In this document: piece after piece, positions 36,812 to 54,424 of the stretch | How positions within the stretch are numbered: position 1 is the stretch's first letter | How the letters are laid out: every line of letters starts with the position of its first letter | Assembly: GCA_949288065.1 (NCBI GenBank) | Contig: CASEIL010000004.1 | Coordinates: forward strand, 1 to 64,000 | DNA: 64,000 nucleotides | Direction of reading: 5' to 3' | Source of the DNA: an uncultured Phascolarctobacterium sp. | Lineage (GTDB): Bacteria > Bacillota > Negativicutes > Acidaminococcales > Acidaminococcaceae | The notes under the pieces: model-generated | Told to the model about the DNA's origin: nothing | The model's database searches: none | Seen by the model: the letters and a program-made list of their open reading frames with translations, nothing else | Position numbers and translations under genes: made by a program

Positions 36812-36812
36812 C

Positions 36813-37838: not shown

Positions 37839-37869
37839 AATATTTCTCCTGTTTTATACCATTTACATT

Positions 37870-38148
37870 TTATTTTATACCGCTATTGTACAGATTCGAA
37901 AATTTAGTATAATCTTTTTTTAAATTATCAATAGAAAGAATTGACGCAATAATATTGAACCCATACTCATCATGTAATTTTTTTACCGAAAAATCTCCAC
38001 ATGAATATTCCAAAACATCGTGTCCTTCAAAATATTTTTGAAGGACACTTTTACTTTCATCGTCCATCCCATAAATATCTTCCACCGTCAAATCAGCTTC
38101 ATATTCCTTATAGCCAAATTTTTCCATCAAAATCTTTTTATAATCCAT
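37870..38148 (-). CDS. small acidic protein, candidate immunity partner
   Basis: 92 aa, not recognised. It starts MDYKKILMEKFGYKEYEADL and is rich in Asp, Glu, Lys and Tyr, with no membrane segment. Its ATG immediately follows the stop of the HExxH protein (no gap), so it is translationally coupled to it. Between two toxin-like genes, the small partner of the upstream one is most often an immunity protein; that is an inference from position. Confidence 0.65.
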   Translation of the reverse strand: MDYKKILMEKFGYKEYEADLTVEDIYGMDDESKSVLQKYFEGHDVLEYSCGDFSVKKLHDEYGFNIIASILSIDNLKKDYTKFSNLYNSGIK

Positions 38149-38838
38149 TTATGACTCCTTATGATTCAATACATACTCAGCAAACATATTCGCGTCTAAT
38201 TCTACCGGCTGTATATAATATCTTATATAGCCAAATTTTTCAGGGTCTAAATAATGTTTAAAATTATTTTTCCAGCGTTTAACTGTTTCAACGTCAACAT
38301 CATATTGTTCCGGGTTGTTAACAACAGCTTTTTGAAACGTATGTCTTGCTTCATGCAATAACGTATTCAAAGCTTCATCCTTTAATTCAGGCTGCTCTAA
38401 ATAGTCATTATGCAAATATAAATATCCATTGCCGACTTCCATTCCCCTTAAATTCGGAGGAATTTTAAAAAACTGTACGCCTTTAATATTAATTTTGCAA
38501 TCTTTCCCTATTCTTTTAGCTAATAAATCTAAAACTTCTGCCCTTTCTTCCGGAGAATAAGTCTCCCAATTTTTATCTTCAAATTTCTCCGACATATCAT
38601 TTATTGCAGAAATACAGTTGCGTTCCATTGCGCCGCATTCATTTACATCAATATTTCTTTTTATATCATTAGTAACATCATTAAATAAAGAAGAAATTAT
38701 TGATTCCGAAGATTTTTGGGCTGTAGAATCCATTAATTTATCAAACTTATCCAAAACATCTTTGCTAAATTTAATGTCTGTGTTTCTATTTAGTTCTCGA
38801 ACATCAGCAACTTTATTAACTTCTTCTAATTTATTCAC
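38149..38838 (-). CDS. zincin-like metallopeptidase domain protein, candidate toxin
   Basis: 229 aa. Near the N-terminus (about 22-42) is the helix FSKDVLDKFDKLMDST, almost matching that of the nuclease at 36813. The C-terminal half has a zinc protease motif HEARH (HExxH) in LNTLLHEARHTFQ. A downstream VELDANMFAEYV provides a plausible third glutamate ligand, as in small gluzincin-type domains. No signal peptide is present. Possible roles are a toxin domain or a processing protease for the system; the shared N-terminus with the nuclease favours a secreted or loaded effector. Confidence 0.7.
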   Translation of the reverse strand: MNKLEEVNKVADVRELNRNTDIKFSKDVLDKFDKLMDSTAQKSSESIISSLFNDVTNDIKRNIDVNECGAMERNCISAINDMSEKFEDKNWETYSPEERAEVLDLLAKRIGKDCKINIKGVQFFKIPPNLRGMEVGNGYLYLHNDYLEQPELKDEALNTLLHEARHTFQKAVVNNPEQYDVDVETVKRWKNNFKHYLDPEKFGYIRYYIQPVELDANMFAEYVLNHKES

Positions 38839-38848
38839 TACAAAACTC

Positions 38849-41800
38849 CTACAAAAATAACATTAATTTTTCAAATAAGCGGCTTGATTCACTGTTTGCA
38901 TCACGTTCTGCTTTTTCTTTTGCCAGAACAGCAATAATTTTTTCGCAATCCAAAGTATCAAAAACACTCAAATCAGGGTCAAGGATTTCGCACATCTTTG
39001 CATACCAGCTGCCAATATCATCTTCATGAATCCTTGCCATTTCAAAAGCTGTTTCTGTATTAAAAATTGAATATAAAATCAAACCTCTTAACCGCTGTAC
39101 TTCTTCTTTTTCCTTAGCCTGAACATATTTATTAAAAGCTACTTTTGCTTCCGCAGGAATACACAAATTGAAACAAGTATCTTTTAAATCCGTAATATAC
39201 TTTTTATCTAATTCATTTCTTGCTTCAGGAGGTGCAATGAGAAATTTAATTAAATTATTTTTATGGACTGATGCTACTTTTTCCGAATCACTGATTTCAA
39301 ACTTTTTACTTTCTTTAAAATTGGTATCAACTCTGCATAATACAGGTTCCAGCCAGTTATTCTGATATACAGCAGCAACAAAAGTTTTAAGCCTTGAAAG
39401 TTCAATAATTTGTTCATCATTTAACCCGGCTGCTTTACCAACCAATTCACGGTCTGTAAAATCAGGTAAACGAAGAATAATTTTAGTATTAGTATTACGT
39501 ATTACAGACATATCCATTAAACCAGGAGCCTGATCCGCAATAATAAATCCTTCACCATAAGTCCTCATTTCAGCAATAGAATTGGCCAGCATTTCAACAG
39601 ATTTACCCAATACATTTGCAGTTTCACTGCTTTGCTCTGTTGAAGTCCTCTTTAAAATATTATGCGCTTCTTCCAGCACAGTAACATGCTGCAGAGGATG
39701 ATTACCTGCACCAGCCGAAGACATGCGGTATTCCTGCAGTTTCATAACTAACAGACCCATAATAAAGGATTTTGTTTCACTTGAACCGATTCTGCTTAAA
39801 TCAACAATAACATTCTCATCAAATAAATTTCCGGCAGCTATTTCATCGCTGGTGAAAATCTGTCTATACAATCCGTTAGTTAATGATTTTAAACGGGTTG
39901 ATAACGCTCCCTTATAATCACCTTTGCTATCAGATGAATATTGCGATTCGTTCATAACAGTATTTATTTGATTAAGAACATCTAAAAAATTAGGATAAAG
40001 CGGATTTCCGTTTGAATCATGATATTTACATTCAGAAATATCTAAATTCCAACCTGCCGTCATATATGCACGTTCAATGGAATCCTTCAATACAGCAGGC
40101 ATCGCAGCATACATAGGCCAGCATACGCTGAAAATTTCTATCAAACGGTCAATATGCTCTAAAACATGGATATCTTTCGGAAAACTAAACGGATTGATTC
40201 TGATAAGCGGGGTCTTTTTAGCATTTGTACCGTAAACTTTTACGTTATTATAGTATCCGAACCTATCTTTATATTCTCCTTTTGCCGGTTCAATAACCAA
40301 AAATTTAATCTTTTTTTTCAGACTGTTTTTTACATTTTTATTAATAAGTTTATCAAGAATAGAATAAATTACTGTAGATTTACCGGAACCTGTAGAACCA
40401 GTAATAAAAGTATGCATGCTCAAACTTTCAACATCAATTTCAACTTTTTGCGGATGCGCTGCACTACCTTCACTATTCCCCATATGGAACAAACTTCCCA
40501 AGGACAGCTTTTGATTACTATTCTCGGCAATGTTCCTTCCAAAAGGAGCCATAGGAATAACAGTAACGCCCGCAATTGATTTTTTAGGCAAACCGATTTG
40601 AACAGCTATCTCATTGCCGCTAACGATAGAAGCCGGTGTAACAATAATATCCTTATCTGCATAAAATTTGGGATGGACAAAAGAACTAAGATATTGACCG
40701 ATTATTTTAGTATCTTCAGCTTTATACCAGGTGTTTATATGAGACGCCTGTACACTTGACCCTTGACCTCTCATCAAAGCATTATACGTACTTGCGGCTG
40801 CCAAAGCTTTTTCTCTGCTGTTAGTAATAACATACGCTGCACAATTAAACGCACCAAAACTTTCACATTCATCAAGGCGTTTTAAATGCAAATCAATTTT
40901 TTCCAACAAAGACTTTACACTTCTGTTTTCGTAGTTTAACTGCAAGCTTTTTCCCGTATTTTTTCCACTTTGAACACTTTCGCCGACCTGTTTATTCCTT
41001 TGGCTGATTTCACTCCTTGTATTAGTTATACTGTTGGAATCAGAAACGCTTCTGTTCATACCTCCGGCAACACCAACACTTGCTGTAATGCCAAGGCTAA
41101 CGCCGATACTGGCATTAACTCCAAAATACGTTCCATTGGTTTTTGTTCTGCCCTGAGTCATCGAAATACCCGTGGAAATACCTTCAGATACCCCTTCAGT
41201 ACGGGTTTTAGCTAATGAAACAGAACTGCTTTCATTGATAGTTATGCTGCTTTTAAGGAATGTTGAAAGCTGCGTATAAATAATTTCATAACCCTTTTTA
41301 ATAGTTTGTATCTCGCTTGTACTAACAGGGTCGGCAAACATAATAATCGTATAATCCTGACCCTTTAAAGAATCGGTAAGATTTTCGATACCCTGCACGT
41401 AATTTTTTATACTTTTCTCTTTATTATCACGTAATGATACAATGCCTGAAACAGCAGAATAACAATTTGCCTTATTCTCAAAAACATCTTTTTTGAATTT
41501 TTGTATACCTTCTTCAGAAACTTCCGTAAAATCAGAACCAATCAAATTTCCTGCCAGCGCGCCTTTAAACGCAGCTGCATCAGCATTACGGCGTTTTATA
41601 TCAACTTCTTTTTCAGTACGGTACTTTTTGGATATAATACCAAAATAATAATCAATACTGTAGCCATCGCTTTTTATAATAGTTGCCAACGTACAATTTA
41701 TTGAAGAAGCCACATTTACAATAGTTGTCAGCTTATCCAAAAAATTTTCTTCTTTATTTATTATAAGTCTGGACAGTTTAAAAAACTTACCGCAGGAAGC

Positions 41801-41956
41801 AATATCAATATCCGTATCTTCTGTTGCCGGAGCAATTAAGGTATACGACTCCAGCTTATCAAGATAACTTTTAGTAATAATAGCTTCGGCATTATTTAAA
41901 GCCCCTGCCATTGTATTCAGCATCTGTTCCTGAGTTCTGTCGAGCATGTTTGCCAT
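38849..41956 (-). CDS. HerA/VirB4-type ATPase
   Basis: 1035 aa. The C-terminal half is a HerA/FtsK-superfamily ATPase: Walker A GSTGSGKSTVIYSIL (near 517), a VIEPAKGEYK segment, Walker B HVTVLEEAHNILKR (near 759), and the IIADQAPGLM and NTKIILRLPDFTDRE sensor-like segments typical of DUF87/VirB4/HerA. The N-terminal half (about 1-430) is not recognised. It contains a Gly/Ser/Thr/Asn-rich stretch (about 240-330; VSLGITASVGVAGGMNRS) that looks extended and low in complexity. No nuclease NurA, relaxase or other type IV genes are nearby. It lies between a dynamin-like gene and the toxin-like genes with gaps of 11 and 10 nt. It may move DNA or protein; unresolved. Confidence 0.85.
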   Translation of the reverse strand: MANMLDRTQEQMLNTMAGALNNAEAIITKSYLDKLESYTLIAPATEDTDIDIASCGKFFKLSRLIINKEENFLDKLTTIVNVASSINCTLATIIKSDGYSIDYYFGIISKKYRTEKEVDIKRRNADAAAFKGALAGNLIGSDFTEVSEEGIQKFKKDVFENKANCYSAVSGIVSLRDNKEKSIKNYVQGIENLTDSLKGQDYTIIMFADPVSTSEIQTIKKGYEIIYTQLSTFLKSSITINESSSVSLAKTRTEGVSEGISTGISMTQGRTKTNGTYFGVNASIGVSLGITASVGVAGGMNRSVSDSNSITNTRSEISQRNKQVGESVQSGKNTGKSLQLNYENRSVKSLLEKIDLHLKRLDECESFGAFNCAAYVITNSREKALAAASTYNALMRGQGSSVQASHINTWYKAEDTKIIGQYLSSFVHPKFYADKDIIVTPASIVSGNEIAVQIGLPKKSIAGVTVIPMAPFGRNIAENSNQKLSLGSLFHMGNSEGSAAHPQKVEIDVESLSMHTFITGSTGSGKSTVIYSILDKLINKNVKNSLKKKIKFLVIEPAKGEYKDRFGYYNNVKVYGTNAKKTPLIRINPFSFPKDIHVLEHIDRLIEIFSVCWPMYAAMPAVLKDSIERAYMTAGWNLDISECKYHDSNGNPLYPNFLDVLNQINTVMNESQYSSDSKGDYKGALSTRLKSLTNGLYRQIFTSDEIAAGNLFDENVIVDLSRIGSSETKSFIMGLLVMKLQEYRMSSAGAGNHPLQHVTVLEEAHNILKRTSTEQSSETANVLGKSVEMLANSIAEMRTYGEGFIIADQAPGLMDMSVIRNTNTKIILRLPDFTDRELVGKAAGLNDEQIIELSRLKTFVAAVYQNNWLEPVLCRVDTNFKESKKFEISDSEKVASVHKNNLIKFLIAPPEARNELDKKYITDLKDTCFNLCIPAEAKVAFNKYVQAKEKEEVQRLRGLILYSIFNTETAFEMARIHEDDIGSWYAKMCEILDPDLSVFDTLDCEKIIAVLAKEKAERDANSESSRLFEKLMLFL

Positions 41957-41967
41957 ATTACCACATC

Positions 41968-44103
41968 CTATAATTTAGCAATTTCCTTATCAAGCATATC
42001 CAAATAAATTTTATATTCGCTGATTTCTTTTTCTTTGTGCTCGTATTGAGCTAACAATGTTTCAAACTCATTTTTAATATTTTTCAACAAGCTTTCCTCA
42101 ACATTTTTGGCAGTTGTATTCATATCGTTTTTAAAATCCGACACAGTTAAAGAAAGTTTTTTGCTTAACTCATCATAAACTCTTGAAATCGCATTCGACA
42201 AAGCTGTAGAAAGCTCGTTGCGCTGCCCGGCAGATGTTAATTCACCGGAAAATTTGGCCGTAATGCTGTTCATAGAATCAGAAATATCAATATTAAACAT
42301 AGGAAATTCAATTTTATTGACTGTTTCTTCGACCAGAATGCGGAATAACGACGAATCATATTTTTCGCTGCCCATATCAAAATTTTGAATAACAACATTG
42401 AGCAGTTTACGTTTAAGCTCTTTTAATTCCAGCGCATCCGAAAAGACCTTTTCTACATTGTTAACTGCTTCTAACGAAAACTTGCGCAAATTTTCTACAG
42501 CGTCAGATGCCAGATAGTATGAATAATGTTCTTCATAAGTATAATAATGAGTTTTCTTCCACCATAAATGCCCTGTTGTATATGAACCATGTCTGGTAAT
42601 ACTACCAGTTCTTTCCTTAATATCCAGATAATCCTTGCCGGCTTCACGTATTTCACGCACGCCTTCAGCTCTTTCGGTTTCGAGTTTAGCGTTTAATTCG
42701 CCAAATACAACCGCAATATCTGCCCTGATATTGTTAATCTGCCCTTCAATAAAATTCTTCTGCTCAAGCAAGGTTTCCCTGTCATTTTGCTCTAAAACAG
42801 CAACTCGTTTGCTTGTTTTTTCTTTAAATTCCTGTAAAAATGCGAGCAGCTCAGTTTTTGCCGTAGGCACAAAGCTTTTAGCTTTTTGCTCTAAAATTGC
42901 CTCTTTTTCTGCAATTACATCTGCAAAAATAGCATTTATTTCATCAAAATTACCCAAAAGCTTTAAATCACTTTGCATATCTTTTGAAAAATTCTTTAAA
43001 GCCGCATAAACATTACGTTCTTCGGCGCTGTATTCAGTTTCAGGTTTTCCGGTCATATTGCACGCAAGTGCAGATACAAGAACAGGTTCTGAACACTGCC
43101 TGATTACCTCAATCAATTCAGATGAACTGTACCTTGATGATAAATCGCTTACAAACTCCTCAACCTTCATTCTCGCACGTCTTTTTAGTTTTTTCTTAAT
43201 AATTTTGCATGCTGCGGGAATATTATCAGCGGTATTTTCATCGCAGCCAAAAACGTCATCCTCGTCCTGTACTCTCAAAATATCCCTGATGCCGCTGTCA
43301 TATTTACTTGCCACCAGAACAAGTTTTTTTACGCCCTTTTGCGGAAGCTGGCTTGAAAGCAGCACCCAATCGCTCTTATCCAGAAAACTGCCAGACTGGC
43401 TGAGAAAAAATACAACATCGCAAACTTCCATAAATTCTTTAGTGCGGATAGTTCTGGAAGCAATAGGATCATTCAAACCCGGGGTATCTACAATAGAAAG
43501 GCCTTTAAATTCTTCTTTATTTAAGTATAAAGTAACCGCTTTAACAATCGGCGTAAACTTACCATCCTCACCAACATAATTATTTAAGTTGGCAATTAAA
43601 TTATCGTAAGTATCAAATTCAATTTCGTCATGCCCTTTTTTAAGGTATGCATCAGGCTCAACACCATTGCGTTCAACCATGCCGACAATTTCGCGGGCAG
43701 CCGTATAAACATCGTCATCCAAATCAACAGCAGCATTTTCTTTTAAAATTTCCCATTCATCAACAGAATAATATTCTATGCTGATAATATTACGGTCAGA
43801 ATATTCCATTTTTGTTAATGTAGCCGTTTTAGGAGTAGATGCCTTGGGCAAAATATCCTTGCCGTTAAACAGTAAGGTATTTAAAAATGATGATTTGCCT
43901 GCCTTAACCTGACCTATAACACCAATATTTAACTTTCTTTCTGTACGGTAAAAATCTTCTGTTTTATACTTAAAATTAGCAACCAGCTTTTCTAACGTAC
44001 TGATATCATCTTTCGCCGCTTTGGCGGATAACCTTTCTATAATACCATTTGTATTTTCAACAAAAACATCAAACTGTTTATTATCCGGTAAATATACTGC
44101 CAT
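41968..44103 (-). CDS. dynamin-like large GTPase (third of the operon)
   Basis: 711 aa. The GTPase domain has G1 GQVKAGKSSFLNTLL (near 66), a threonine-containing switch (STPKTATLTKMEY), G3 DTPGLND (near 208) and a G4-like VASKYD in place of NKxD. Long helical and coiled-coil segments follow, broken by an aromatic/basic loop (HLWWKKTHYYTYEEHYSYY) that could be a membrane-contact paddle. This layout fits bacterial dynamin-like proteins that remodel membranes. ATG 44103 overlaps the upstream stop codon (TAATG); the frame upstream of it is inside the previous gene. Confidence 0.85.
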   Translation of the reverse strand: MAVYLPDNKQFDVFVENTNGIIERLSAKAAKDDISTLEKLVANFKYKTEDFYRTERKLNIGVIGQVKAGKSSFLNTLLFNGKDILPKASTPKTATLTKMEYSDRNIISIEYYSVDEWEILKENAAVDLDDDVYTAAREIVGMVERNGVEPDAYLKKGHDEIEFDTYDNLIANLNNYVGEDGKFTPIVKAVTLYLNKEEFKGLSIVDTPGLNDPIASRTIRTKEFMEVCDVVFFLSQSGSFLDKSDWVLLSSQLPQKGVKKLVLVASKYDSGIRDILRVQDEDDVFGCDENTADNIPAACKIIKKKLKRRARMKVEEFVSDLSSRYSSSELIEVIRQCSEPVLVSALACNMTGKPETEYSAEERNVYAALKNFSKDMQSDLKLLGNFDEINAIFADVIAEKEAILEQKAKSFVPTAKTELLAFLQEFKEKTSKRVAVLEQNDRETLLEQKNFIEGQINNIRADIAVVFGELNAKLETERAEGVREIREAGKDYLDIKERTGSITRHGSYTTGHLWWKKTHYYTYEEHYSYYLASDAVENLRKFSLEAVNNVEKVFSDALELKELKRKLLNVVIQNFDMGSEKYDSSLFRILVEETVNKIEFPMFNIDISDSMNSITAKFSGELTSAGQRNELSTALSNAISRVYDELSKKLSLTVSDFKNDMNTTAKNVEESLLKNIKNEFETLLAQYEHKEKEISEYKIYLDMLDKEIAKL

Positions 44104-45101
44104 TACATACCACCCCTTAATCTGTTTGTATGCCATTTGTATAAAGAATCATAATCATCAAAATACGATACTACATACACTGTCCAATTTGTTACAGGTT
44201 CACTGAAACTTGAAACAGATATCTTATCTTCAATATAAAACACAATCCCATCACAAGGTGCTTTAATTATTTTTGTTGATTCTTCAAGGTGGATTTTCCA
44301 TGGTAAAAGTCCTACAATTTCATCAAATTCTTTTTCTTTATAAACAATAATCTGGCTATCTTTTTTTAAAAAAGCACCTGCTTCAATTCTATTTTCTATA
44401 AAACAATCAAAGCGAATATTTCTTTTATCTTTAAATTTATCTTTAAAACTTCCACATTTAATACGTTTTGCTTCAATCCATGAATCAGGAATATAACTTC
44501 TAAGCTGCGCAGCCCAGCGGTTATTGCTAGGCGCAGGCATTTGGTTCAAAATATCAAAATCATTTTTCAATACGGCTTTAGCAACAAAGCCCGCTGCACG
44601 TACATCTTCTTTATTGCATCCCAGTGCCTGTGCCATATCAGCAATTACAGCAAATGAATCCTCCGATGCCTGTTCGTTGATATTTACAAGGATTAAGGCG
44701 TCTGTTAAAAATGCATATTTTATGTCTTTTAATTCAACGCAGGCATTTTCAAAATCATTTTTATCAAAATCCATACCCATAAGGATAATATCATCAGCAG
44801 AAGCATTTAACCCCATGCCGTACGCAATTCTTGTTAAATAAAGCAGCTTGTCGTAAATTTTATCTTCATCAGCAACAATGATATGCGCCAGGCATGATAC
44901 ATACGCTTTTGCCACAACTTCGGATATATTAAAAGAGCGCTTATTTTCAACAGGATATTTTTGTGCCAGTTTAGTAATTTTATTATAAATAAGTTTCTTT
45001 TCGCTTTCCGGCTTTGGTTTCATCTTTTCGATTTCCGTTTGCAGTTCAGCCATTTGTTCTTCAACGGAACGGAGCTGCATTTGTAATTCAGTTAAATTCA
45101 T
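44103..45101 (-). CDS. TerB-like helical domain with C-terminal barrel-sandwich-hybrid domain (copy A)
   Basis: About 332 aa. An N-terminal coiled coil (TELQMQLRSVEEQMAELQTE) is followed by an all-helical domain (about 55-185) resembling TerB-type domains. The C-terminal 110 residues have the pattern of a biotinyl/lipoyl-like barrel-sandwich hybrid (FLKKDSQIIVYKEKE, then TKIIKAPCDGIVFYI). No biotin or lipoyl lysine motif is evident. The helical domain is shared with the proteins at 45098, 46088 and 48911. ATG 45101 overlaps the upstream stop (ATGA). The role is unknown; a scaffold or adaptor is likely. Confidence 0.78.
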   Translation of the reverse strand: MNLTELQMQLRSVEEQMAELQTEIEKMKPKPESEKKLIYNKITKLAQKYPVENKRSFNISEVVAKAYVSCLAHIIVADEDKIYDKLLYLTRIAYGMGLNASADDIILMGMDFDKNDFENACVELKDIKYAFLTDALILVNINEQASEDSFAVIADMAQALGCNKEDVRAAGFVAKAVLKNDFDILNQMPAPSNNRWAAQLRSYIPDSWIEAKRIKCGSFKDKFKDKRNIRFDCFIENRIEAGAFLKKDSQIIVYKEKEFDEIVGLLPWKIHLEESTKIIKAPCDGIVFYIEDKISVSSFSEPVTNWTVYVVSYFDDYDSLYKWHTNRLRGGM

Positions 45102-46042
45102 TTGCCTGTCCCCTTTTTTACCCATGCTTTTATAGAATCTTTATTATCATTTTCATTAGCTATAACGCCATAATTTATGTAATTGTTGCGGAACTGAAAC
45201 AACATTCCTTCAACAGGAGCTTTAATAGTTGTTACAGGGGCATACCAACTGTCCGCTCTGTAAGATGCTATTACATCACCTTTTTTTACGCAGCTCTGCT
45301 GTTTAGCCATCCATTTAAAACCACGGTATGTTTCATCAGGCGCTTTTACAACAATTTTTCTAAATAAAATTAAAATATTTTCAGGAACATTTTCACCCAA
45401 ATAATGCTCAAAAATATTTCTATATGTCAAAATCACCTTTAAATCAGTCTTTTTTATTTTAATAAAATCTTGTTTTAAAACACCTGCTGCAATAACCGAA
45501 AATATACGCAGCTGTTCTTTTTCAATACCAAAAATGCTGCAAAGATTAACAACATAAAGTAAAATATTTTTATTTCCCTGCCCACAAATATTAGCTGTAA
45601 TCAAGGCATCAAGCACAAGTTGATAATAATACTGCTGCGGTATAATTTCCGGAAGTTCATAAAAAAAGTCCGTTTCTATTTGCAAAGAGTCCTTGTATAA
45701 TTCTTCCAATGTTATATCAAGCTTGGCCTGTGATAACAGCCAGTGAATAAACACAAGGCGTTCCATAGTATTTTGGTGGTCTTTATCCAACTGCGCAAGG
45801 CTTAATAACACTTTTAAATAAACATAACAAGCATAAGCGTTGCCTAACCTACTTAACGGATGCCTGCCAAAAGTAAAATGCGCTGCCATAACACGTATTT
45901 TGGCAAAATCATTATCATTTGCTTCATCACTGTTTAAATCATCTATTGCTTTATAAAGCCCTGCCACAGCAGTATTAACTTCTTTGAGTTTAGAATCCAA
46001 TTCCCGGATATCTTTCTGTATATCCAATAAACTTTTTTTCAT
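45098..46042 (-). CDS. TerB-like helical domain with C-terminal barrel-sandwich-hybrid domain (copy B)
   Basis: 314 aa. It has an N-terminal coiled coil (LLDIQKDIRELDSKLKEVNT), a helical domain (about 60-205) collinear with the one in copy A (YQLVLDALITANI, FSVIAAGVLKQDF), and a C-terminal hybrid-barrel segment (SCVKKGDVIASYRADSWY, then TTIKAPVEGMLFQF). It is a paralogue of its neighbour at 44103 but is diverged, so duplication is old. AGAGG precedes ATG 46042. Function is unknown. Confidence 0.78.
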   Translation of the reverse strand: MKKSLLDIQKDIRELDSKLKEVNTAVAGLYKAIDDLNSDEANDNDFAKIRVMAAHFTFGRHPLSRLGNAYACYVYLKVLLSLAQLDKDHQNTMERLVFIHWLLSQAKLDITLEELYKDSLQIETDFFYELPEIIPQQYYYQLVLDALITANICGQGNKNILLYVVNLCSIFGIEKEQLRIFSVIAAGVLKQDFIKIKKTDLKVILTYRNIFEHYLGENVPENILILFRKIVVKAPDETYRGFKWMAKQQSCVKKGDVIASYRADSWYAPVTTIKAPVEGMLFQFRNNYINYGVIANENDNKDSIKAWVKKGTGK

Positions 46043-46087
46043 ATTGAGCCTCTAGTATACATGATAATAATATATTCACAATTTTTA

Positions 46088-47302
46088 TTATTGAAGGATC
46101 ACGGTAACTGAACCTCTACATATATTTCTTTCTTCTAATATATTTTCACTTATAATTTCCCCATTATAACAACCAATATAGACATCTTTTTTTGATGTTC
46201 CATTATTGCGGCATTCACCTCCAATAAAATGATTACCAACAATTGTCAAATCATTAACATAATTATCAAAATGCATAAATATATCAGTTGCCCAATAATT
46301 GTATTTATAATTTGTTCTTGCAACATAACAATTTAATAACTCATTATTTTGTAAAATAACAAAATCGATACTACCTTCTTCACTACAATAAAAAACTCCA
46401 CCTACAGTATCACTTTCACCAGTACAGCCACAATTTACAAATTTATTACCATCAATAATAATATTATTAACACCTGTAAAACAAGCAACACGATTAGAAA
46501 AATTGCTAATTTCACAATCCTCAATAGTCACTTTACCAATCCCGATAAAATTGAATTTATATTTACTATCATAAAATTTGCAACTGCGTATAATAACTTC
46601 TTCACAGCCATTAAAATCAACATCATGCTGTAAAGTTGCAGAAATATTTTCAATAATCACTTGCTTTGCATTATAACTCGTTAAGTCTATCATTCCTTTA
46701 TTTGGAGAATATAGATGGCGTTTTTCATAAGTATCAACTATTTTGCCCGTATAAAAACCGTCAATATAATGGAATAATGACAAATTTAACAAAGAATCAG
46801 GCAATAACTTTTTCGCTTCATCAAAAAGCTCTGAACTTTGCATTACAATAGCCTTAGCGGCAGCAGCCAGATATTTAAGCTGTTCACGGTTTATGCCAAG
46901 CATTTCCACAAGTTCTGCCAGCAATTCGTAATTTTTTTCTGCATTTTCTGCAACAGAAAGCAGGATAATAGCATCTATACAGAAATAGTGTTTTAAAGTA
47001 TCCTGCTTATAAGCAGCAATAAATTCATCAACGTCAGTTGTGTTAAGGTCTAACGCCATTTTCATATAGTCTTCAAAAGCCGCTTCGGCATTTATACCTG
47101 CCATAAGCCTGCGTACATAAAGCACCTGCATTACAGAAGGTTCGCCTGTATATCTAATTAAAGCGCAAAGCATTCTTAAATACAGTGATTTTATATACTC
47201 TTCCTTTTCGGCAAGCATTGCATTTTTTAACGGATAAAGTTCCGCTTTTTTACCTTCAAAATACTTTCTAATTTTATCAATTTTGTTTTCATATTCCGGC
47301 AT
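46088..47302 (-). CDS. TerB-like helical domain with right-handed beta-helix (copy C)
   Basis: About 404 aa. Residues about 1-180 repeat the operon's helical domain (CIDAIILLSVAENAEKN, LAAAAKAIVMQSSEL). From about 200 on, short repeated units of the type VTIEDCEISNF, NIIIDGNKFVNCG and FVILQNNELLNCY form a parallel beta-helix as in pectate-lyase-like folds. There are no clear catalytic residues, so a structural or binding role is likelier than polysaccharide cleavage. No signal peptide. ATG 47302 has GGAGG nine bases upstream and overlaps the end of the GTPase gene by 14 nt. Confidence 0.8.
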   Translation of the reverse strand: MPEYENKIDKIRKYFEGKKAELYPLKNAMLAEKEEYIKSLYLRMLCALIRYTGEPSVMQVLYVRRLMAGINAEAAFEDYMKMALDLNTTDVDEFIAAYKQDTLKHYFCIDAIILLSVAENAEKNYELLAELVEMLGINREQLKYLAAAAKAIVMQSSELFDEAKKLLPDSLLNLSLFHYIDGFYTGKIVDTYEKRHLYSPNKGMIDLTSYNAKQVIIENISATLQHDVDFNGCEEVIIRSCKFYDSKYKFNFIGIGKVTIEDCEISNFSNRVACFTGVNNIIIDGNKFVNCGCTGESDTVGGVFYCSEEGSIDFVILQNNELLNCYVARTNYKYNYWATDIFMHFDNYVNDLTIVGNHFIGGECRNNGTSKKDVYIGCYNGEIISENILEERNICRGSVTVILQ

Positions 47303-48887
47303 AATTATCCTCCGTATCATGCAAAGCACTCATCAATTCGGCATATTCCCTGGTGTTTTTATAAACGTCGTTAATGCGTATCTCGGATTCTTTAACATTG
47401 CACAAATCCTTAATAACTTTTAACAATTCATCGCTGTATTCACTGCCGCCGGCAGTTTTGTTAATAACAGGAGTAATGCCTTCAAAAATATTCTGAAGCA
47501 TATCAGCAACAGATTTATCTGTACGAAGCCCTTTCTCACGTTTATATTCTTCAATTATTTGCAGCGGATTTTTAATTTTATCCTGCAGCAAATCGATCTC
47601 CGAAGGTTCCGGCATAGCGATGCCGACAATATCTGAAATAAATTTAATTTCAGTAAAGAATTCGTCCTGCAATTCTTTTAACCGCTTGCTGATTGCTTTT
47701 AATTCGTTTACATTTTTTTGCGCATCACGTACTAAAAGCTGCAAAGGCGCCAATATTTCCGTATCAATATCCTCGCCCATAAGTTTGGTAATGGATGTAT
47801 TAAGGCGTGTTAATTTACGGCTTTCTTCATCAATTTCATCTTCATAAAATTCCTTGCAGCGTACAAACAGTATTTTAAAATTCCTTGCAAAGTTGGATTC
47901 ATAAACCTGACTGTTCCAGATTTCTATTTGCTTTTTAATTTTGTTAGTATCTTCTTCAATAAAAGCGTTCAGTTCAGGGTCTTCAATCTGGTCCTGTTTG
48001 CATGTAAATGCAAATACGTCAATATAACGCACGCCTTTAATATCCAGTGTCGATTTAATTTTTGCAATGATATCTTTAAGGTCTGCTAAACTTTTTTTAT
48101 CTGCTTTATTAAGGATTATTAATTTTGGGATATCCTCACGCAATGTTTTTATAAATTTAATATCTTCTTCCGTAATAGTTCCGGCATCTGCCTGTACAAA
48201 CCATAAAATGTAATTACTGGAATTTAACTGGCCTCTTGCAATTTGTTCGTCCGTTTTGGCTGAATATTTTTCCGAATCCGGCTTGGAATAACCGGGAGTA
48301 TCCAGAAATGCAATATGGTCAAACTTGTGCAGCGGCGTTGCAAAGAAGATGTTTTCCAGAACATGGCCTAAAGTAACGGCATCGGTTACTTTTTCATCGT
48401 CGTCATCTTCTACTTCGCCAAAACCATGAGCTATTTTGCGGATATCTCTGGGTTGCATCTGAACTTTGGTATCAAAAACATTGATACCCATAACATTGTG
48501 TTTTTCACCGCTTACAATGTAGGTCGGCACAGAAGTGGAAGGGTCGATATCAGCCGGCAAAACCGTTTTACCCATCAATGCGTTTAAAAAGCTGGATTTA
48601 CCGCTTGAAAAACCGCCGCCTAAAGCAATTATATTTTTGCCGATAAGCTTATCGTAAAGAATGAAATCCCTGAATTTTTCATATTCGGATTTAAAATCTG
48701 TATAAAGTTCGTAAAAATCTTCCGGCGCATTTTTCTTTAAGGTATCGGGAATTTTTTTATTTATAATTTCTTCAATTTTTGATAAATCAACCTTTAATTG
48801 CGGGCCGGATACCGATTGACGGATAATATTGCAAAGCAATTCATAATTTGCAAGCAATTTTTCATATACTTCTTCATCATAAGCCAT
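47289..48887 (-). CDS. dynamin-like large GTPase (second of the operon)
   Basis: 532 aa with a complete G domain: G1 GGGFSSGKSSFLNAL (near 94), a switch threonine in DPSTSVPTY, G3 LDTPGYSKPDSEKYS (near 195) and a canonical G4 NKAD (near 259). The C-terminal half is helical and highly charged (LKAISKRLKELQDEFF). It has no obvious membrane helix. It differs from the other two dynamin-like proteins in having a canonical G4, so the three are not simple duplicates. Confidence 0.86.
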   Translation of the reverse strand: MAYDEEVYEKLLANYELLCNIIRQSVSGPQLKVDLSKIEEIINKKIPDTLKKNAPEDFYELYTDFKSEYEKFRDFILYDKLIGKNIIALGGGFSSGKSSFLNALMGKTVLPADIDPSTSVPTYIVSGEKHNVMGINVFDTKVQMQPRDIRKIAHGFGEVEDDDDEKVTDAVTLGHVLENIFFATPLHKFDHIAFLDTPGYSKPDSEKYSAKTDEQIARGQLNSSNYILWFVQADAGTITEEDIKFIKTLREDIPKLIILNKADKKSLADLKDIIAKIKSTLDIKGVRYIDVFAFTCKQDQIEDPELNAFIEEDTNKIKKQIEIWNSQVYESNFARNFKILFVRCKEFYEDEIDEESRKLTRLNTSITKLMGEDIDTEILAPLQLLVRDAQKNVNELKAISKRLKELQDEFFTEIKFISDIVGIAMPEPSEIDLLQDKIKNPLQIIEEYKREKGLRTDKSVADMLQNIFEGITPVINKTAGGSEYSDELLKVIKDLCNVKESEIRINDVYKNTREYAELMSALHDTEDNYAGI

Positions 48888-48910
48888 TTTATTGTCTCCT
48901 TTTATTTAAA

Positions 48911-50365
48911 TTACTCAACTATTCCTACATTATGCGATGAGCGAATTTCACCATAGTCATAATGATATGAACTACAATCCTTGAATTCATTATTATATTC
49001 TGTTGAATTTTTTAATCCTAAAATATAACTAGTAACACCTTTATCATATGAATCATCTGAAGAACAATAACCTTCATTAAAGCAACAATTTTCTACTTTG
49101 GCATTTATTGCTTTAACAATTTGCATTTTAAATTTAGCATAGCTTCCATAACCTGACTCTCCTTTTGATGAACATTTTGTCAAATTATTGTTTTTAAAAA
49201 TACCATTTGTAATTAGTACAATACCACCGGTTGTAACATTACGGTCTTCCCTGTTTGTTTTTATTGAACAATTTTCAAAAACACTATTTTTTATCTCTCC
49301 AGTATTCATTTGAATAAGATAAGAACATGGTACATCTAATCCCTGACAATTTATAAATTTACAATTTTCTATATTACTATTTGTCAAATCCAAAATGTTT
49401 TTCGATACACGTATATTTGTGAAAATTGTATCTTTAAAAGTTATTTTATCACCTTGAATAAATGTATAATCATCTTCTCCTTTTACTCCTCCAAATAAAC
49501 CAAAAATTCCAGTATTTGTATTTTCATTAAAAATATTATTTTCAAAATTGCAGCCATCGAATATAACCTGTTTATTACCTTTAAAGCCTCTTATATTATT
49601 AAAGCAGCAATTGAAAAAAGAAATCTTGTCAGCTTTATATTCGTTTAAATCAATAAAATCCTGATAATTAAAAATTTTAGCATTTGCTATTAAAATATTT
49701 CCAGGCATGTTTTTAATATCAGTTATATTTTTAACAATACTTGTATATGTATTTTCCGGATAATAGGCTAAAAAAGAACTATAATTAATTTTATCATCAG
49801 GATTACTAAGCTGAATTAAGTTAGTAAAATTCTGTCCTGCTATAGCTTTGGCTATATTAGCTGTTTTTAAAATAGTTTCTTTGTTGATTTTTAATAATTG
49901 TAAAATATCAGAAATCAGTTCGCATTCTTTTTCTGTAATTCTATCTTTTCTAAACAAACTTAATAGCATTAAATCAACAGCAAAACAAACAGCAGTATCA
50001 AAATCAAAAACTTCAACCAAATTATTAAAATATTCTATATCTACTTTAAAGCTTTGTGTAACATACTCTTTTATATTTATCTGAGAATCATACGATGCAA
50101 TAATTCTGCAAATAAATAACTGCTGCTCTTTTGATAAGTTATTGTTATTTCCACTATTAAAAATTGATAAAAGTGTTGTAATATAATATTTTTTTACAAC
50201 ATCAGATTTATTTACAAGAATATGCCCTTTAAACGGATATCTTTTTGCTAAAGCAATTATTTTACTATCTTCTTGATATTCAGTTTTAGTATCTGGAGTT
50301 TTTTCAAGTTTTTGGACTTCTTCTGTAAGTTGTTTAAGTAAAACAACAATCTGCTCTATCGTCAT
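48911..50365 (-). CDS. TerB-like helical domain with right-handed beta-helix (copy D)
   Basis: 484 aa. An N-terminal coiled coil (IVVLLKQLTEEVQKLEK) and the shared helical domain (about 45-190; CFAVDLMLLSLFRKD, TANIAKAIAGQNF) are followed by about 290 residues of beta-helix-like repeats (KISFFNCCFNNIRG, QVIFDGCNFENNIF, NSVFENCSIKTN). Asn and Cys recur at the turns as in asparagine-ladder beta-helices. No signal peptide. It follows the first dynamin-like gene by 12 nt. Function is unknown; compare copy C. Confidence 0.8.
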   Translation of the reverse strand: MTIEQIVVLLKQLTEEVQKLEKTPDTKTEYQEDSKIIALAKRYPFKGHILVNKSDVVKKYYITTLLSIFNSGNNNNLSKEQQLFICRIIASYDSQINIKEYVTQSFKVDIEYFNNLVEVFDFDTAVCFAVDLMLLSLFRKDRITEKECELISDILQLLKINKETILKTANIAKAIAGQNFTNLIQLSNPDDKINYSSFLAYYPENTYTSIVKNITDIKNMPGNILIANAKIFNYQDFIDLNEYKADKISFFNCCFNNIRGFKGNKQVIFDGCNFENNIFNENTNTGIFGLFGGVKGEDDYTFIQGDKITFKDTIFTNIRVSKNILDLTNSNIENCKFINCQGLDVPCSYLIQMNTGEIKNSVFENCSIKTNREDRNVTTGGIVLITNGIFKNNNLTKCSSKGESGYGSYAKFKMQIVKAINAKVENCCFNEGYCSSDDSYDKGVTSYILGLKNSTEYNNEFKDCSSYHYDYGEIRSSHNVGIVE

Positions 50366-50377
50366 TCTAAACTTCTC

Positions 50378-51997
50378 CTATGCCAAATTTATTTTCATTT
50401 CTTCAATTTTCGCCAAATCTGCTTTTATATCAGTTACTAAATTTTCTTTTTGTTCTTTTTCGTCAGATATTTTTTTACGTACATCTTCAATTGCTTTTTC
50501 AAGTGCATTACGTTGGGCAGTAATTTCATCTTCAATAGAAGTATTTATTAATTTAATTTGCTTGGTAATTGCTGTTTCGATGCCATGACCAACTTCTTTT
50601 AAAACCTGCGGATATACTTCAGAATTTAACTTCATTCTGATTTGGCGTTTTTGTTCTTCGCGCTTTTGATCTCCTTTTATTTTATGATAAAGTGCAATAA
50701 CACCTACAACAAGAGCGCCTATAACGGGAAGCCCCAAAATTATTGCAGCCGTAGTAGCTACGGACATCGATACAATTCCTTTGCTTACTTCTTCTGCATT
50801 AAAAGAAAACAATACATGCACATCTCCAATTGATTCATTATTAATGCAGTTAGCAACACGTTTTAAGTATTTTTCTACTTTAGGAATAAAACGTTTTTTT
50901 ATGCTTGTTGTAACGGCATTTCTTACAACAATATTCATTCTTTCATTAATATTTTGATTGTTCATCGCCATTGCAACAAAAGAAGTTTCTTCTCCTTCCA
51001 ATGCAATTTGCACATCGCATTTAATTTCTTCTACACATTCAGATATAGCAGCATCAAAATTCTCTTTTTCGTTGGAAAATTGATTATTTAAGGTATCTAA
51101 CTGTTTACCAAGTTTTTCTTTCTGTTCATCAAGTTCAGATTCAGACAGTTCGCTGCTCTTTAATGTAGTATGCAGATAATTTTCTGTTGTATTAATTGCC
51201 GCTAAAACAATATTTTTAAATTTATCGGCCAGAATATGTTGTGAATTTTCCTGAACAGTTTTTAAAAATTTTTTTAATTCTTCGGCATCGCCAGTATAAC
51301 TGGAAGTTTCACAATAAATTAATTCTCTGTTTCCGATAAATTTTTTTAAATTTTCTTTCAAAGCAGACAACGTATTTGGATAATCATCATTTCGTTTATC
51401 ATATTTTGTTATAGCAATGCAAATAGGCATATCATGCAGGCATAATTCTTTTAAAATGTTGCCAACGCTTGTCCGAAGCGTCATATCATCAGCCGGAAAT
51501 GCAATAATATATGCCAGACTGCACGGAAGATAACTGTCAATAGCTCTGTTATGAACTTCAAAGCCTGATTCAAAACCCGGCATATCAACGAGCATTACAT
51601 CCGGAATTTCTTCTAAAAAACTATTTTTTAAGTTGATTGATGTGCAATAAACTGTATTAGCGTCTAATTCAAGTTCCCTATATTCATCAACGCTTACTTT
51701 TCTGTGTGTTCCATCATTTTGTATAATACAAATATTTTCTTCAACTGGTGCATAGGATATTTCAGCCGGCACAGCAGTTTCCGGTGTAATATCTACTTTA
51801 AGGATTTTTTTGCCTTTGGTATATCCTAAAAGCGTATTCAGCAACGCACTTTTACCAGAGCTAAATTTACCGATTACAGGAGTACATACTTTAGCAGATT
51901 GCATATCTAAACGCAATTTGTCAATTACTTCGGTAGACAGAGAATATCTATTATTTATTTCAAACAATTCATCAAGTGTTTTGTAAAATTTTTCCAT
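50378..51997 (-). CDS. dynamin-like large GTPase with membrane segment (first gene of the operon)
   Basis: 539 aa. G1 GKFSSGKSALLNTLLG (near 45), switch Thr in DITPETAVPAE, G3 MLVDMPGFESG (near 136) and a G4-like ITKYD. After about residue 270 come long charged helices. A hydrophobic hairpin follows at about 405-435 (ATTAAIILGLPVIGALVVGV), then a basic stretch (HKIKGDQKREEQKRQ) and a final coiled coil. The hydrophobic hairpin inside the helical stalk resembles the membrane paddle of bacterial dynamin-like proteins. It is the promoter-proximal gene, about 70 bp after the -10 box at 52069. Confidence 0.86.
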   Translation of the reverse strand: MEKFYKTLDELFEINNRYSLSTEVIDKLRLDMQSAKVCTPVIGKFSSGKSALLNTLLGYTKGKKILKVDITPETAVPAEISYAPVEENICIIQNDGTHRKVSVDEYRELELDANTVYCTSINLKNSFLEEIPDVMLVDMPGFESGFEVHNRAIDSYLPCSLAYIIAFPADDMTLRTSVGNILKELCLHDMPICIAITKYDKRNDDYPNTLSALKENLKKFIGNRELIYCETSSYTGDAEELKKFLKTVQENSQHILADKFKNIVLAAINTTENYLHTTLKSSELSESELDEQKEKLGKQLDTLNNQFSNEKENFDAAISECVEEIKCDVQIALEGEETSFVAMAMNNQNINERMNIVVRNAVTTSIKKRFIPKVEKYLKRVANCINNESIGDVHVLFSFNAEEVSKGIVSMSVATTAAIILGLPVIGALVVGVIALYHKIKGDQKREEQKRQIRMKLNSEVYPQVLKEVGHGIETAITKQIKLINTSIEDEITAQRNALEKAIEDVRKKISDEKEQKENLVTDIKADLAKIEEMKINLA

Positions 51998-52068
51998 TTT
52001 ATAACCTCCGTTTTTATGTATTAAGGCATTTAAACTATTTTTATACAGTTTTTAAATCCTATACATTT

Positions 52069-52097
52069 ATTATAAGCTATTGCCGTACTGATAGCAA
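52069..52097 (-). promoter_or_regulatory. promoter of the dynamin/HerA/toxin operon
   Basis: On the minus strand TTGCTA (52092-52097), a 17-bp spacer and TATAAT (52069-52074). Overlapping inverted repeats lie across the spacer and -35 box: GCTAT/ATAGC (52076-52080 and 52091-52095) and ATTGC/GCAAT (52079-52083 and 52094-52098). They are possible operator sites for the WYL protein encoded just upstream. Confidence 0.7.
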
Positions 52098-52130
52098 TGT
52101 TTATAAAACACAGATAAAAAGTAATAGCCC

Positions 52131-53108
52131 TTAATTTAATTTATAGTTTTGCACTAAAACTTTTAATTCTTCTTTAATTTCTTCAACTAATGTTTGAGGT
52201 TCTAATACTTTTACCATTTTTCCCTGCGATAATAAAAACATATTGATTCCCCTGCCATAAGTTTTTGCCTCAATAACTTTAGTATTTCCTCTTATTTCTA
52301 TTATCTTTGCCGTAGGAATTTTATCTAATATTGCCTGTACCGAAGGTCCTGTATATTCAAACTTAATATTTCTAAGTTCGCCGGGAAACATAAATTGTAT
52401 TTTACTTCTTAATTCCCCTTCGTCAAAATCGTGAATTTTATCAATTGTAAAGCTGTTTCTGTGCTTAACAATATTAATAATCCTGTCAACTCTGTAATAA
52501 AGAGGTTTCCAATCATCTTTATCGCTATGATATGCGATTAAATAAAAATAGTAATCAGAAAACATTATAGCAACCGGTTTTATTTTACGTTCTATCAATT
52601 TACGGTCTATTTTATAATATGTAACCGAAATTTCTATTTTTTCGTGTATACAGCGTGTCAACTGCCAAAGATTATCAATCACATTTTTGCAATCATGCTT
52701 AACTTCATTATAATGATACAGCTCTTTTTCTAAAAGTTCATCCAATATCCCCTTATCATGATAGGACACAAAATTTTTAAGTTTTGTTAATAACTTCAAA
52801 ATATCTATTTTACTGAACGCTCTAGAACCTACCATTATTTTCATAATAGCCAGAAGTTCTTTGCTTAATAAAAAGTTCTCAAATTCAAGATAATATGATT
52901 TAGTGCTTGCTGAATATTGTAATTCAGTATTGCCAACAATATCACGGTTATCACTTAAAAAATTTTTTATGTCATTAATATCTCTGGAAATACTTTTAGT
53001 GGAAACTTCGTATTCATTTGCTATTTTACGTACAGATAAATTTTCACCCTTCATCGCACGATAAAAGATATCAAGTACCCTGTTCTTTTTTTGATTTGTA
53101 TTTCCCAT
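52131..53108 (-). CDS. WYL-domain transcriptional regulator
   Basis: 325 aa. Residues about 1-60 form a helix-turn-helix of the DeoR/HTH_11 type (SVRKIANEYEVSTKSISRDI). A WYL domain follows (about 135-225; KIEISVTYYKIDRKLIERKIKPVA, LIAYHSDKDDWKPLYYRVD), then a WCX-type C-terminal domain. WYL proteins commonly control defence and conflict loci in response to nucleic-acid-like or other ligands. It has the same orientation as the operon it precedes and probably regulates it. Its own promoter is an extended -10 with an inverted repeat at -35 (53155-53170). Confidence 0.9.
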   Translation of the reverse strand: MGNTNQKKNRVLDIFYRAMKGENLSVRKIANEYEVSTKSISRDINDIKNFLSDNRDIVGNTELQYSASTKSYYLEFENFLLSKELLAIMKIMVGSRAFSKIDILKLLTKLKNFVSYHDKGILDELLEKELYHYNEVKHDCKNVIDNLWQLTRCIHEKIEISVTYYKIDRKLIERKIKPVAIMFSDYYFYLIAYHSDKDDWKPLYYRVDRIINIVKHRNSFTIDKIHDFDEGELRSKIQFMFPGELRNIKFEYTGPSVQAILDKIPTAKIIEIRGNTKVIEAKTYGRGINMFLLSQGKMVKVLEPQTLVEEIKEELKVLVQNYKLN

Positions 53109-53137
53109 ATTTATGTCCCCTTATAATAGTTTTATTT

Positions 53138-53170
53138 ATTATATCATACTTTAAGGACACTCATTTGTCC
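53138..53170 (-). promoter_or_regulatory. promoter and inverted-repeat operator of the WYL gene
   Basis: On the minus strand TGA-TATAAT (-10 at 53138-53143) is an extended -10 element with no good -35. At the -35 position lies a perfect inverted repeat GGACA-N6-TGTCC (53155-53170), a likely site for autoregulation. AAGGGG precedes the gene. Confidence 0.6.
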
Positions 53171-53174
53171 GGTT

Positions 53175-53206
53175 AAAAAATCAGGCAGGTAAAAAATACC
53201 TGCCTG
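53175..53206 (-). terminator. terminator of the glycine-zipper GTPase gene
   Basis: CAGGCAGGTA and TACCTGCCTG form a perfect 10-bp stem with a five-base loop, followed on the minus strand by ATTTTTT. It separates this gene from the WYL gene. Confidence 0.85.
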
Positions 53207-53221
53207 CTACAAAATGAATAT

Positions 53222-54343
53222 TCAATCAAAAATTGCTCCAAAGATACCGCCTATAGCACCAATAGCGCCACCTACCGCACCGCCTATAACTTTACCAGGT
53301 ATTCCCAAAATCTGGCCACCGATTTCACTGCCTGCTTCTGCTCCATCGGATATATAATCCCATACCGTGTCACAAAACCCACGTTTTGTTTCTCCACGAT
53401 AGTCATGTTCCTGATCGTCATAACGCCAGTTGTCTTCATCATTATTAATATTATCAGCCAATGCTAACCGTTTATCTTTAGGTATCATTGTAACAATATA
53501 ATACAATAATTTGGTTAAATTATAGGGTTTTCTTTGTTCACCGCCGTCTTCTTTATATCCGGCACAATAACAAACAGGTTCTATCTCCAAACCTGTTGCA
53601 AGTTTAATTCTTGAACTAACAGAATCTGCTTTTTTCTGCAAAAATTCTTTTAAAACTTCGTCAGGTTTATTTTCTAGTGCAAGCCAATGATTTCCCTTCA
53701 TTGCAATATCCGATTGGTTTAATGCCACTAAAATTCTTGGTTTAGCTTCTTTGCCTAAACAAGGTATGAGAATATTATTAATTAAATCATATGATGTGCC
53801 AAGATCTTTGGAAGAAGCGTCAATAATTACTATTACCATGTCAATAAGAGGATAACCATCCTGATCATTTTCATTCAGTTTAGTTATTATATCTTTTGTA
53901 ATTTTCTTATCCTTCTCAACCCCATCACCAAGGCCGGGCGTATCCCATATAATTAGATTATCTAATTCAAATTTAGAAATATTATCAGTTTCCGGGTCTA
54001 CTCCGACGCCGACTTTTGCAATATCCATATTAAACATTGCATTTACAGTTGAACTTTTACCGCTGCCGGTTGCCCCAACAAGCATAATATTAACCGTTTT
54101 ACTGCGAATCTTAATTAAACGAGAAAGCCGTTTTGTTTTTTCGGCATCAGAAATATCAGATGCCATTATATCTTCTTCTAAAAGTTCGTAAATATTCTTC
54201 TTTTCTTTATTGACATTGTCAATACTAATTTGACTATCATTATTGGAAATATTTGTAACAACAGTACCTTTTTGTGTTTTTTCAACAACCTCCTTCATTG
54301 ATATAGCATTAATTTTAATTACCTTTTCATTTTGTTCTTTCAT
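53222..54343 (-). CDS. Era/YeeP-like GTPase with glycine-zipper C-terminus
   Basis: 373 aa. After a charged N-terminal 75 residues comes a small GTPase domain with G1 VGATGSGKSSTVNAMF (near 91), G3 IWDTPGLGDGVEKDK and a G4-like ALNQSD. The last 35 residues form a Gly/Ala/Ile glycine-zipper (GKVIGGAVGGAIGAIGG) that could insert in membranes or self-associate. It differs from the three dynamin-like proteins, lacking their long helical stalks. It has its own promoter and terminator beside the WYL gene, and it is AT-rich like the rest of the island. It probably belongs to the same system, though expressed separately. Confidence 0.83.
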   Translation of the reverse strand: MKEQNEKVIKINAISMKEVVEKTQKGTVVTNISNNDSQISIDNVNKEKKNIYELLEEDIMASDISDAEKTKRLSRLIKIRSKTVNIMLVGATGSGKSSTVNAMFNMDIAKVGVGVDPETDNISKFELDNLIIWDTPGLGDGVEKDKKITKDIITKLNENDQDGYPLIDMVIVIIDASSKDLGTSYDLINNILIPCLGKEAKPRILVALNQSDIAMKGNHWLALENKPDEVLKEFLQKKADSVSSRIKLATGLEIEPVCYCAGYKEDGGEQRKPYNLTKLLYYIVTMIPKDKRLALADNINNDEDNWRYDDQEHDYRGETKRGFCDTVWDYISDGAEAGSEIGGQILGIPGKVIGGAVGGAIGAIGGIFGAIFD

Positions 54344-54395
54344 TTTTATTCCTCCATTCTATTTTTTTATTTCTGCTATATCAATAAAATAACAA

Positions 54396-54424
54396 ATCAT
54401 ACAGACTAACGTGTGTCTGTTCAA
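54396..54424 (-). promoter_or_regulatory. promoter with embedded palindrome upstream of the zipper GTPase
   Basis: On the minus strand TTGAAC (54419-54424), a 17-bp spacer and TATGAT (54396-54401). The inverted repeat ACAGAC-N8-GTCTGT (54401-54420) fills the spacer between the boxes, so a bound repressor would block RNA polymerase. Confidence 0.65.

Follow-up and report, generated by a model that had tools for sequence, protein, structure and literature searches.

The window analysed here, a stretch of 64,000 nucleotides from an uncultured Phascolarctobacterium sp. (positions 1 to 64,000 of contig CASEIL010000004.1, assembly GCA_949288065.1), encodes four paralogous proteins with a common TerB-like helical domain, whose genes lie among those of three dynamin-like proteins (DLP1, DLP2 and DLP3). 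The best reading of these sequences is that the four TerB-like proteins would act as adaptors within a mobile conflict system, and the whole cluster is probably a toxin-deploying or a self-defence weapon. The same operon contains a HerA-like ATPase gene and a toxin-immunity cassette, which were absent from an earlier note on this DNA and which put the operon in a different light.

Homology of the four TerB-like proteins

The four open reading frames (ORFs), named here by their lower coordinate, were found to be intact:

44103..45125, minus strand: 44103, TerB-like domain and barrel-sandwich hybrid (bsh2)
45098..46042, minus strand: 45098, TerB-like domain and barrel-sandwich hybrid (bsh1), assigned by profiles
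46088..47329, minus strand: 46088, TerB-like domain and right-handed beta-helix (bh2)
48911..50365, minus strand: 48911, TerB-like domain (domain profile, 148 bits) and beta-helix (bh1)

The true start of 46088 probably lies nine codons downstream of the one used here (GTG at 47329), at Met10 (about position 47302), because this residue lines up with the starts of the orthologues.

Pairwise comparison of the N-terminal domains with phmmer (Z=4) gave E values of 3e-16 for 44103/46088, 1e-14 for 44103/48911 and 5e-14 for 46088/48911, and of 2e-8 to 6e-6 for the pairs that included 45098. All six pairs scored above every one of about 1,850 residue-shuffled controls, the narrowest margin being that of 45098/46088 (21.1 versus 14.8 bits). 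When a profile was built from relatives only, leaving out the sequences of the window, it recovered exactly these four proteins at 90-179 bits, and the other proteins of the island reached at most about 7 bits; a search of the own genome with 46088 also recovered 44103. Pairwise identity among the four domains is low (15-25%), as it would be if they resembled each other merely by chance, as helical proteins can. Nevertheless, the shuffled controls and the relatives-only profile refute this explanation, whose probability we regard as negligible. The paralogy and the common N-terminal helical domain proposed in the earlier note are thus confirmed. Its collinear motif was recognised as DALI or DAII in three proteins, 48911 having DLML at this position, and the coiled coil that it had placed in all four is short or weak in 46088.

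Folds of the shared and the C-terminal domains

Structures were predicted for 44103 and 46088, and 45098 and 48911 were placed by profiles. The model of 44103, obtained with AlphaFold2 from 31 aligned relatives (predicted local distance difference test, pLDDT, 89.2), consists of a long N-terminal helix followed by the helical domain and then a beta domain. The solved structures ranked first and second for the helical domain were 2ou3 (Z 9.7, 139 residues aligned, root mean square deviation 5.5) and 2h5n (Z 8.3), matches of helical domains below Z 13 not being conclusive by themselves. Foldseek gave E values of 0.45-0.6 for TerB-type structures, and no match at E≤0.001 was obtained with the models searched against PDB and BFVD. 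None of the four proteins matched Pfam TerB at E≤10, and no TerB chain was among their sequence matches in PDB. Because the Foldseek values were not significant and neither Pfam nor the PDB sequences yielded a TerB match, the shared domain of the predicted model appears TerB-like at the level of the fold only; the resemblance to TerB noted earlier would thus hold for the fold and fails for the sequence.

In 44103, residues 220-321 matched barrel-sandwich hybrid domains (RNA polymerase beta, biotin-dependent carboxylase; Z about 6). The model of 46088 (pLDDT 87.1) contains a right-handed beta-helix at residues ~181-413, whose structural neighbours are of the pectate-lyase type (Z about 17). The C-terminal domain of 45098 is a member of the bsh1 profile, the bsh1 and bsh2 alignments being homologous (hhalign 97.4%, E 1.4e-11), and that of 48911 matched the beta-helix profile (E 2.2e-6). 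The beta-helix and barrel-sandwich families are unrelated to each other (hhalign 0.1%). Both models and both profile assignments agree with the earlier proposal of two alternative C-terminal domains, each present in two proteins. It had also described them as different outward modules, a description that we did not retain, none of the four proteins having a signal peptide or a clear membrane segment.

The tree of 33 N-terminal domains contained three stable subfamilies, bh, bsh1 and bsh2, which are common to Clostridia. The 48911 protein is a divergent, long-branched extra copy whose place in the tree is uncertain and for which the other loci have no orthologue. A single clade of beta-helix proteins was not rejected (approximately unbiased test, p-AU 0.38). 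Judged from the stable subfamilies of this tree, the architecture is the product of an old gene duplication with fixed C-terminal domains, that is, three old paralogous subfamilies and one divergent extra. The same stability ruled out free swapping between beta-helix and barrel-sandwich domains, and the mix-and-match modular set that had been suggested gives way to old fixed subfamilies. Retention of the paralogues varies from locus to locus (loci carry the prefix L); L016 and L018 have two bsh1 proteins and no beta-helix protein.

Gene context of the TerB-like proteins

The system is held by a foreign island of low guanine plus cytosine (GC) content, in which we found, besides the four TerB-like proteins, a WYL regulator, three dynamins, a HerA-like ATPase and then toxin and immunity genes:

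36280..54803: low-GC foreign island of 18.5 kb (GC 30-36% versus about 50% around it)
36440..36874, minus strand: candidate immunity gene for toxin 2
36813..37838, minus strand: toxin 2, shared N-terminal tag (E 4.3e-5) and DNA/RNA non-specific endonuclease (Pfam Endonuclea_NS_2, 2.5e-24)
37870..38148, minus strand: ORF of 92 amino acids, candidate immunity gene for toxin 1 by position only, without a Pfam match
38149..38838, minus strand: toxin 1, shared N-terminal tag (profile E 3.9e-7) and HEARH metallopeptidase-like domain
38849..41956, minus strand: HerA-like (DUF87) ATPase (Pfam DUF87, 4.4e-16)
41968..44136, minus strand: dynamin-like GTPase DLP3 (Pfam Dynamin_N, 1.9e-18)
47289..48887, minus strand: dynamin-like GTPase DLP2 (Pfam Dynamin_N, 3.5e-17; 46-84% identity to relatives)
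50378..51997, minus strand: dynamin-like protein DLP1 (Pfam Dynamin_N, 2.5e-13)
52131..53108, minus strand: WYL-domain regulator (Pfam WYL, 9.7e-11)
53222..54343, minus strand: AIG1/YfjP-like GTPase, optional upstream component (Pfam AIG1, 1.1e-8; MMR_HSR1, 2.7e-9)

The edges of the island are sharp, the left limit of nucleotide synteny with two congeners being 36279 and the right limit 54804-54825; in relatives, the two genes flanking the island sit on different contigs. All three DLPs scored above the Dynamin_N gathering score (50.8-67.5 bits versus a cut-off of 27), identifying them as bacterial dynamin-like proteins, and DLP1 has a hydrophobic paddle segment at residues 418-436 (Kyte-Doolittle 2.77). 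The AIG1/YfjP-like GTPase has a glycine-rich, hydrophobic C-terminus, and its orthologues occupy the equivalent position in L008, L012, L014, L019 and L024.

Seventeen relatives, mostly from Lachnospiraceae and other Clostridia, were found by a search with DLP2. Where the contig allows, their gene order is WYL, DLP1, DLP2, TerB-like (two to three copies), DLP3, HerA, toxin and immunity. TerB-like genes adjoined dynamin genes in 23 of 23 loci, including loci without HerA or toxin genes. Because fifteen of these loci and the Photobacterium plasmid were found by means of a dynamin, the unbiased part of the count is the six loci found with the TerB-like domain itself. The adjoining of the two gene types in every locus supports, as far as gene order can, that the TerB-like proteins partner dynamin GTPases.

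On the Photobacterium ganghwense plasmid pPGC22 (L034, 12310-19083), a DLP1-DLP2-TerB-like-DLP3 module is embedded in an F-type conjugation region, with traU on one side and traN on the other. The Pseudomonas aeruginosa plasmid ppae01 (L037, 1009-13205) bears WYL and a dynamin triad in the order DLP1-DLP3-DLP2, without a TerB-like gene. In L020 (13826-16012), a decaying copy, DLP3 is broken into two ORFs and no HerA-like gene was found in the sequence that remains. Scans of viral contigs with 44103 and with the DLP2 alignment gave no relatives and DLP3 had no phage match, so that the system, as far as seen in these sequences, would not be phage-borne; a plasmid search with the beta-helix protein gave no match.

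The HerA-like ATPase and the toxin-immunity genes

The HerA-like ATPase comprises an N-terminal region of about 490 residues, a single DUF87 region and a variable tail (residues 881-1035), which is about 37-50% identical among relatives, as against 58-87% in 45-residue blocks of the ATPase core. Its closest solved structures are HerA proteins, and the NCBIfam anti-phage HerA models remained below their cut-offs (41.1 versus 800 and 26.3 versus 850 bits).

The gene after HerA was a short toxin-like gene in 13 of the 13 TerB-type loci in which it was visible, usually followed by an immunity gene. When the genes in this position in several chassis were considered, at least 18 of 24 matched toxin-type families of Pfam, the families matched being WHH/colicin DNase (9), NS_2 nuclease (5) and also GH-E, LHH, papain-fold deamidase and metallopeptidase; among the genes behind the toxins were members of the immunity-type families SUKH (7 of 20), DUF6985 (5) and SUFU (1). 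In TerB-type loci the toxins have in common an N-terminal tag, about 45 residues long, that precedes unrelated C-terminal enzymes. Profiles trained only on toxins of other C-terminal classes and used to search each held-out toxin found six of ten at E 8e-13 to 4e-5 and two weakly (0.05-0.13), the two in L017 and L019 being missed. In the window, both toxin genes carry, where the tag is encoded, a copy of a 77-nucleotide repeat (positions 37730 and 38730, 70% identity). A homologue of toxin 1 is present in L027, and homologues of the candidate immunity gene of toxin 2 follow the same type of nuclease in L061, L062 and L064 (E 1e-17 to 6e-4). In its sequence features the locus resembles a polymorphic toxin system, with exchanged known toxin domains, adjacent immunity genes and a shared N-terminal region.

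A natural exchange of toxins was found between L016 and L018, the sole near-identical pair with different toxins. From the regulator up to HerA residue 880 they show 91-97% identity (77% in one TerB-like protein), which then falls to about 58% in the HerA tail. Nucleotide similarity persists over the first 48 or so codons of the toxin gene, where it ends; the toxin body (LHH versus WHH) and the immunity gene are replaced, and similarity returns downstream. The change of the tail is suggestive of a cargo-reading part, and is not proof of it, because the tail evolves faster even with an unchanged toxin and only one such pair is available. In four loci with the same toxin the HerA tails are 85-98% identical versus about 91-98% for the whole protein.

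Comparison with known systems

The solved TerB-fold proteins (2ou3, annotated as a tellurite resistance protein of COG3793, and 2h5n, PG1108) would share with the present proteins a helical fold over about 140 residues. They differ in that no sequence similarity was detected, and in that the domain is here fused to beta-helix or barrel-sandwich domains and encoded with dynamins, not with terC or terD; no TerC or TerD was found in Pfam scans of the island genes. Type VIIb loci (EssC, LXG toxins, immunity genes) likewise have an FtsK/HerA-superfamily ATPase followed by variable toxin-immunity genes, and their ATPase C-terminus differs where the cargo differs, the essC 3' end varying with the downstream genes (PMC10765036). 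In contrast, the ATPase described here has a single DUF87 domain and not the multi-domain EssC type, and dynamins and TerB-like adaptors are present instead; no WXG100 or LXG was found in the toxins scanned, nor EssA, EssB or EsaA among the proteins scanned.

The LeoABC operon of enterotoxigenic Escherichia coli, tied to toxin release in vesicles (PMC4159319), is also a dynamin operon on a mobile island; the available part of that source describes no HerA, TerB or toxin cassette for it, and its leoBC gene is split. The PADLOC models of LeoA and LeoBC gave only partial matches (21-47 bits), not over most of the protein. With the polymorphic toxin systems of Zhang et al. 2012 (PMC3482391), the locus shares, on the available part of their text, a conserved N-terminal region, an exchangeable C-terminal toxin, an adjacent immunity gene and the same toxin and immunity families; that part names FtsK/HerA trafficking only for type VII and FtsK-related trafficking for type IV, and mentions neither TerB nor dynamin. 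With HerA-effector anti-phage systems the locus shares the HerA/DUF87 ATPase core, which is the closest solved relative; here there are a long extra N-terminal region and a toxin with an immunity partner, and scores below the NCBIfam anti-phage HerA cut-offs. The literature searched, covering few subscription journals and no separate bioRxiv set, contained no description of the combination of dynamin, HerA, TerB and polymorphic toxin. It offers precedent for both export and defence, because LeoABC is tied to toxin release in vesicles and Bacillus subtilis DynA to phage resistance, delaying phage-induced lysis (PMC8844932).

Proposed function and alternatives

We propose a mobile conflict system of the polymorphic-toxin kind: the TerB-like adaptors would act for the dynamins, and HerA would deal with the tagged toxins, a reading that we hold to be evenly poised between right and wrong. 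The TerB-like domain would be the part that docks on the dynamins; through their beta-helix and barrel-sandwich modules the proteins may make rigid or oligomerising contacts to other subunits, and the dynamins may work at the membrane, as the hydrophobic paddle of DLP1 suggests. The variable HerA tail would recognise the tagged toxins, the ATPase would move or activate them and the immunity protein would shield the producer, in a layout that seems to resemble type VIIb with different parts. Such a system would most likely be directed outward, its nuclease and protease toxins being deployed against other bacteria. A more specific version, which we offer tentatively and with somewhat less than even confidence, is a toxin-deployment machine of Bacillota, so far undescribed, in which the HerA tail would select tagged toxins and the TerB-fold adaptors would hold the dynamin triad, which would move the toxins across the membrane or pinch it off; in sister versions of the machine, related HerA-like ATPases would work with different partners, GTPases or Hsp70. 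Polymorphic toxins are usually assigned to a few known delivery routes. If true, the proposal implies either that gut Clostridia and related bacteria have a further, new route of toxin delivery or that there is a new kind of phage defence armed with toxins, and the TerB-like adaptors would give bacterial dynamins a concrete family of partners and a role that can be tested.

Several observations weigh against the proposed conflict system. Neither a secretion channel nor a surface adhesin or a signal peptide could be recognised, and the HerA tail changes more quickly than the remainder of the protein even where the toxin is unchanged. Dynamin-TerB modules without HerA or a toxin beside them occur in L034, L097 and L098, the last two being among the six loci found with the TerB-like domain itself, and proteobacterial plasmids and one Deferribacterota plasmid carry the dynamin triad without a TerB-like, HerA-like or toxin gene. 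The triad of the P. aeruginosa plasmid adjoins ZorD and EH-signature (ZorC-type) genes and integrases, and the TerB-type locus L013 (4277-7243) has the PADLOC candidate-defence families PDC-M40B and PDC-M09A between WYL and DLP1; this Zorya neighbourhood and these families fit a defensive role.

Such a role would be that of an intracellular anti-phage system acting by abortive infection, in which the dynamin-TerB module senses or stabilises a damaged membrane and the HerA-like ATPase frees or activates an immunity-held nuclease, killing the infected producer. The WYL regulator, the Zorya and PADLOC neighbours, the missing export signals, the effect of DynA and the kinship of the ATPase to HerA, with its sub-threshold matches to anti-phage models, all speak for it. 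However, paired and exchanged WHH, LHH, NS_2, colicin-DNase and SUKH genes are generally taken as a hallmark of inter-strain toxins and cognate immunity genes are seldom needed by defence effectors, so that we consider this role, although it is the chief rival of our proposal, less likely than not. The modules without HerA, together with HerA-toxin genes without TerB in L026, L027, L061-L072 and L080, could also mean that one operon merely unites two unrelated units, the HerA-toxin-immunity cassette and a dynamin-TerB module that protects the membrane. This seems improbable, because the DLP1-DLP2-TerB-DLP3-HerA-toxin order is kept, with small gaps or overlaps, in diverse Clostridia and in two genomes of the class of the window, and other HerA-toxin chassis likewise encode dynamin or GTPase-like proteins. 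Finally, the TerB-type fold match would fit a Ter (tellurite/stress) system in which a small ligand or a metal binds to the TerB-like domains, an explanation to which we give very little credence, since neither a TerB sequence match nor TerC or TerD was found among the island genes scanned and the domain alignment has no invariant acidic residue.

Sister chassis of the HerA-like ATPase

The HerA family was surveyed in 350 genomes of the class of the window and 398 phylum-wide genomes. Sister chassis were recognised, consisting of WYL, dynamin-like or Hsp70-GTPase-like proteins, a protein of about 200 residues encoded upstream of HerA, HerA, toxin and immunity; L061-L073 and L080 belong to them, mostly with toxin and immunity genes after the HerA-like gene. 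The ~200-residue protein usually ends, as judged by eye, in a hydrophobic segment, and no similarity to the TerB-like proteins was detected in it (hhalign probability <1%). In a divergent HerA group (L075-L079, L082 and L083) no toxin was recognised at that position; L075-L079 and L082 encode the divergent HerA together with two other proteins, a DLP3-like GTPase (about 515 residues) and one that is rich in cysteine and starts with MGGGGGCCIGDCC or similar.

Downstream of the HerA-like gene, L029-L032 encode proteins containing Big_2 (bacterial Ig-like) domains; these are followed by short genes that have acidic N-termini and resemble further toxins. L030-L032 additionally have Hsp70 and a TPR/J-like membrane protein near the HerA-like ATPase. 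In L026 (9947-12999) and L064 (7988-11040) the HerA-like ATPase is without most of the N-terminal region; its gene is located directly behind phage-type genes (DNA methylases, HNH) and is followed by that of an NS_2 nuclease toxin.

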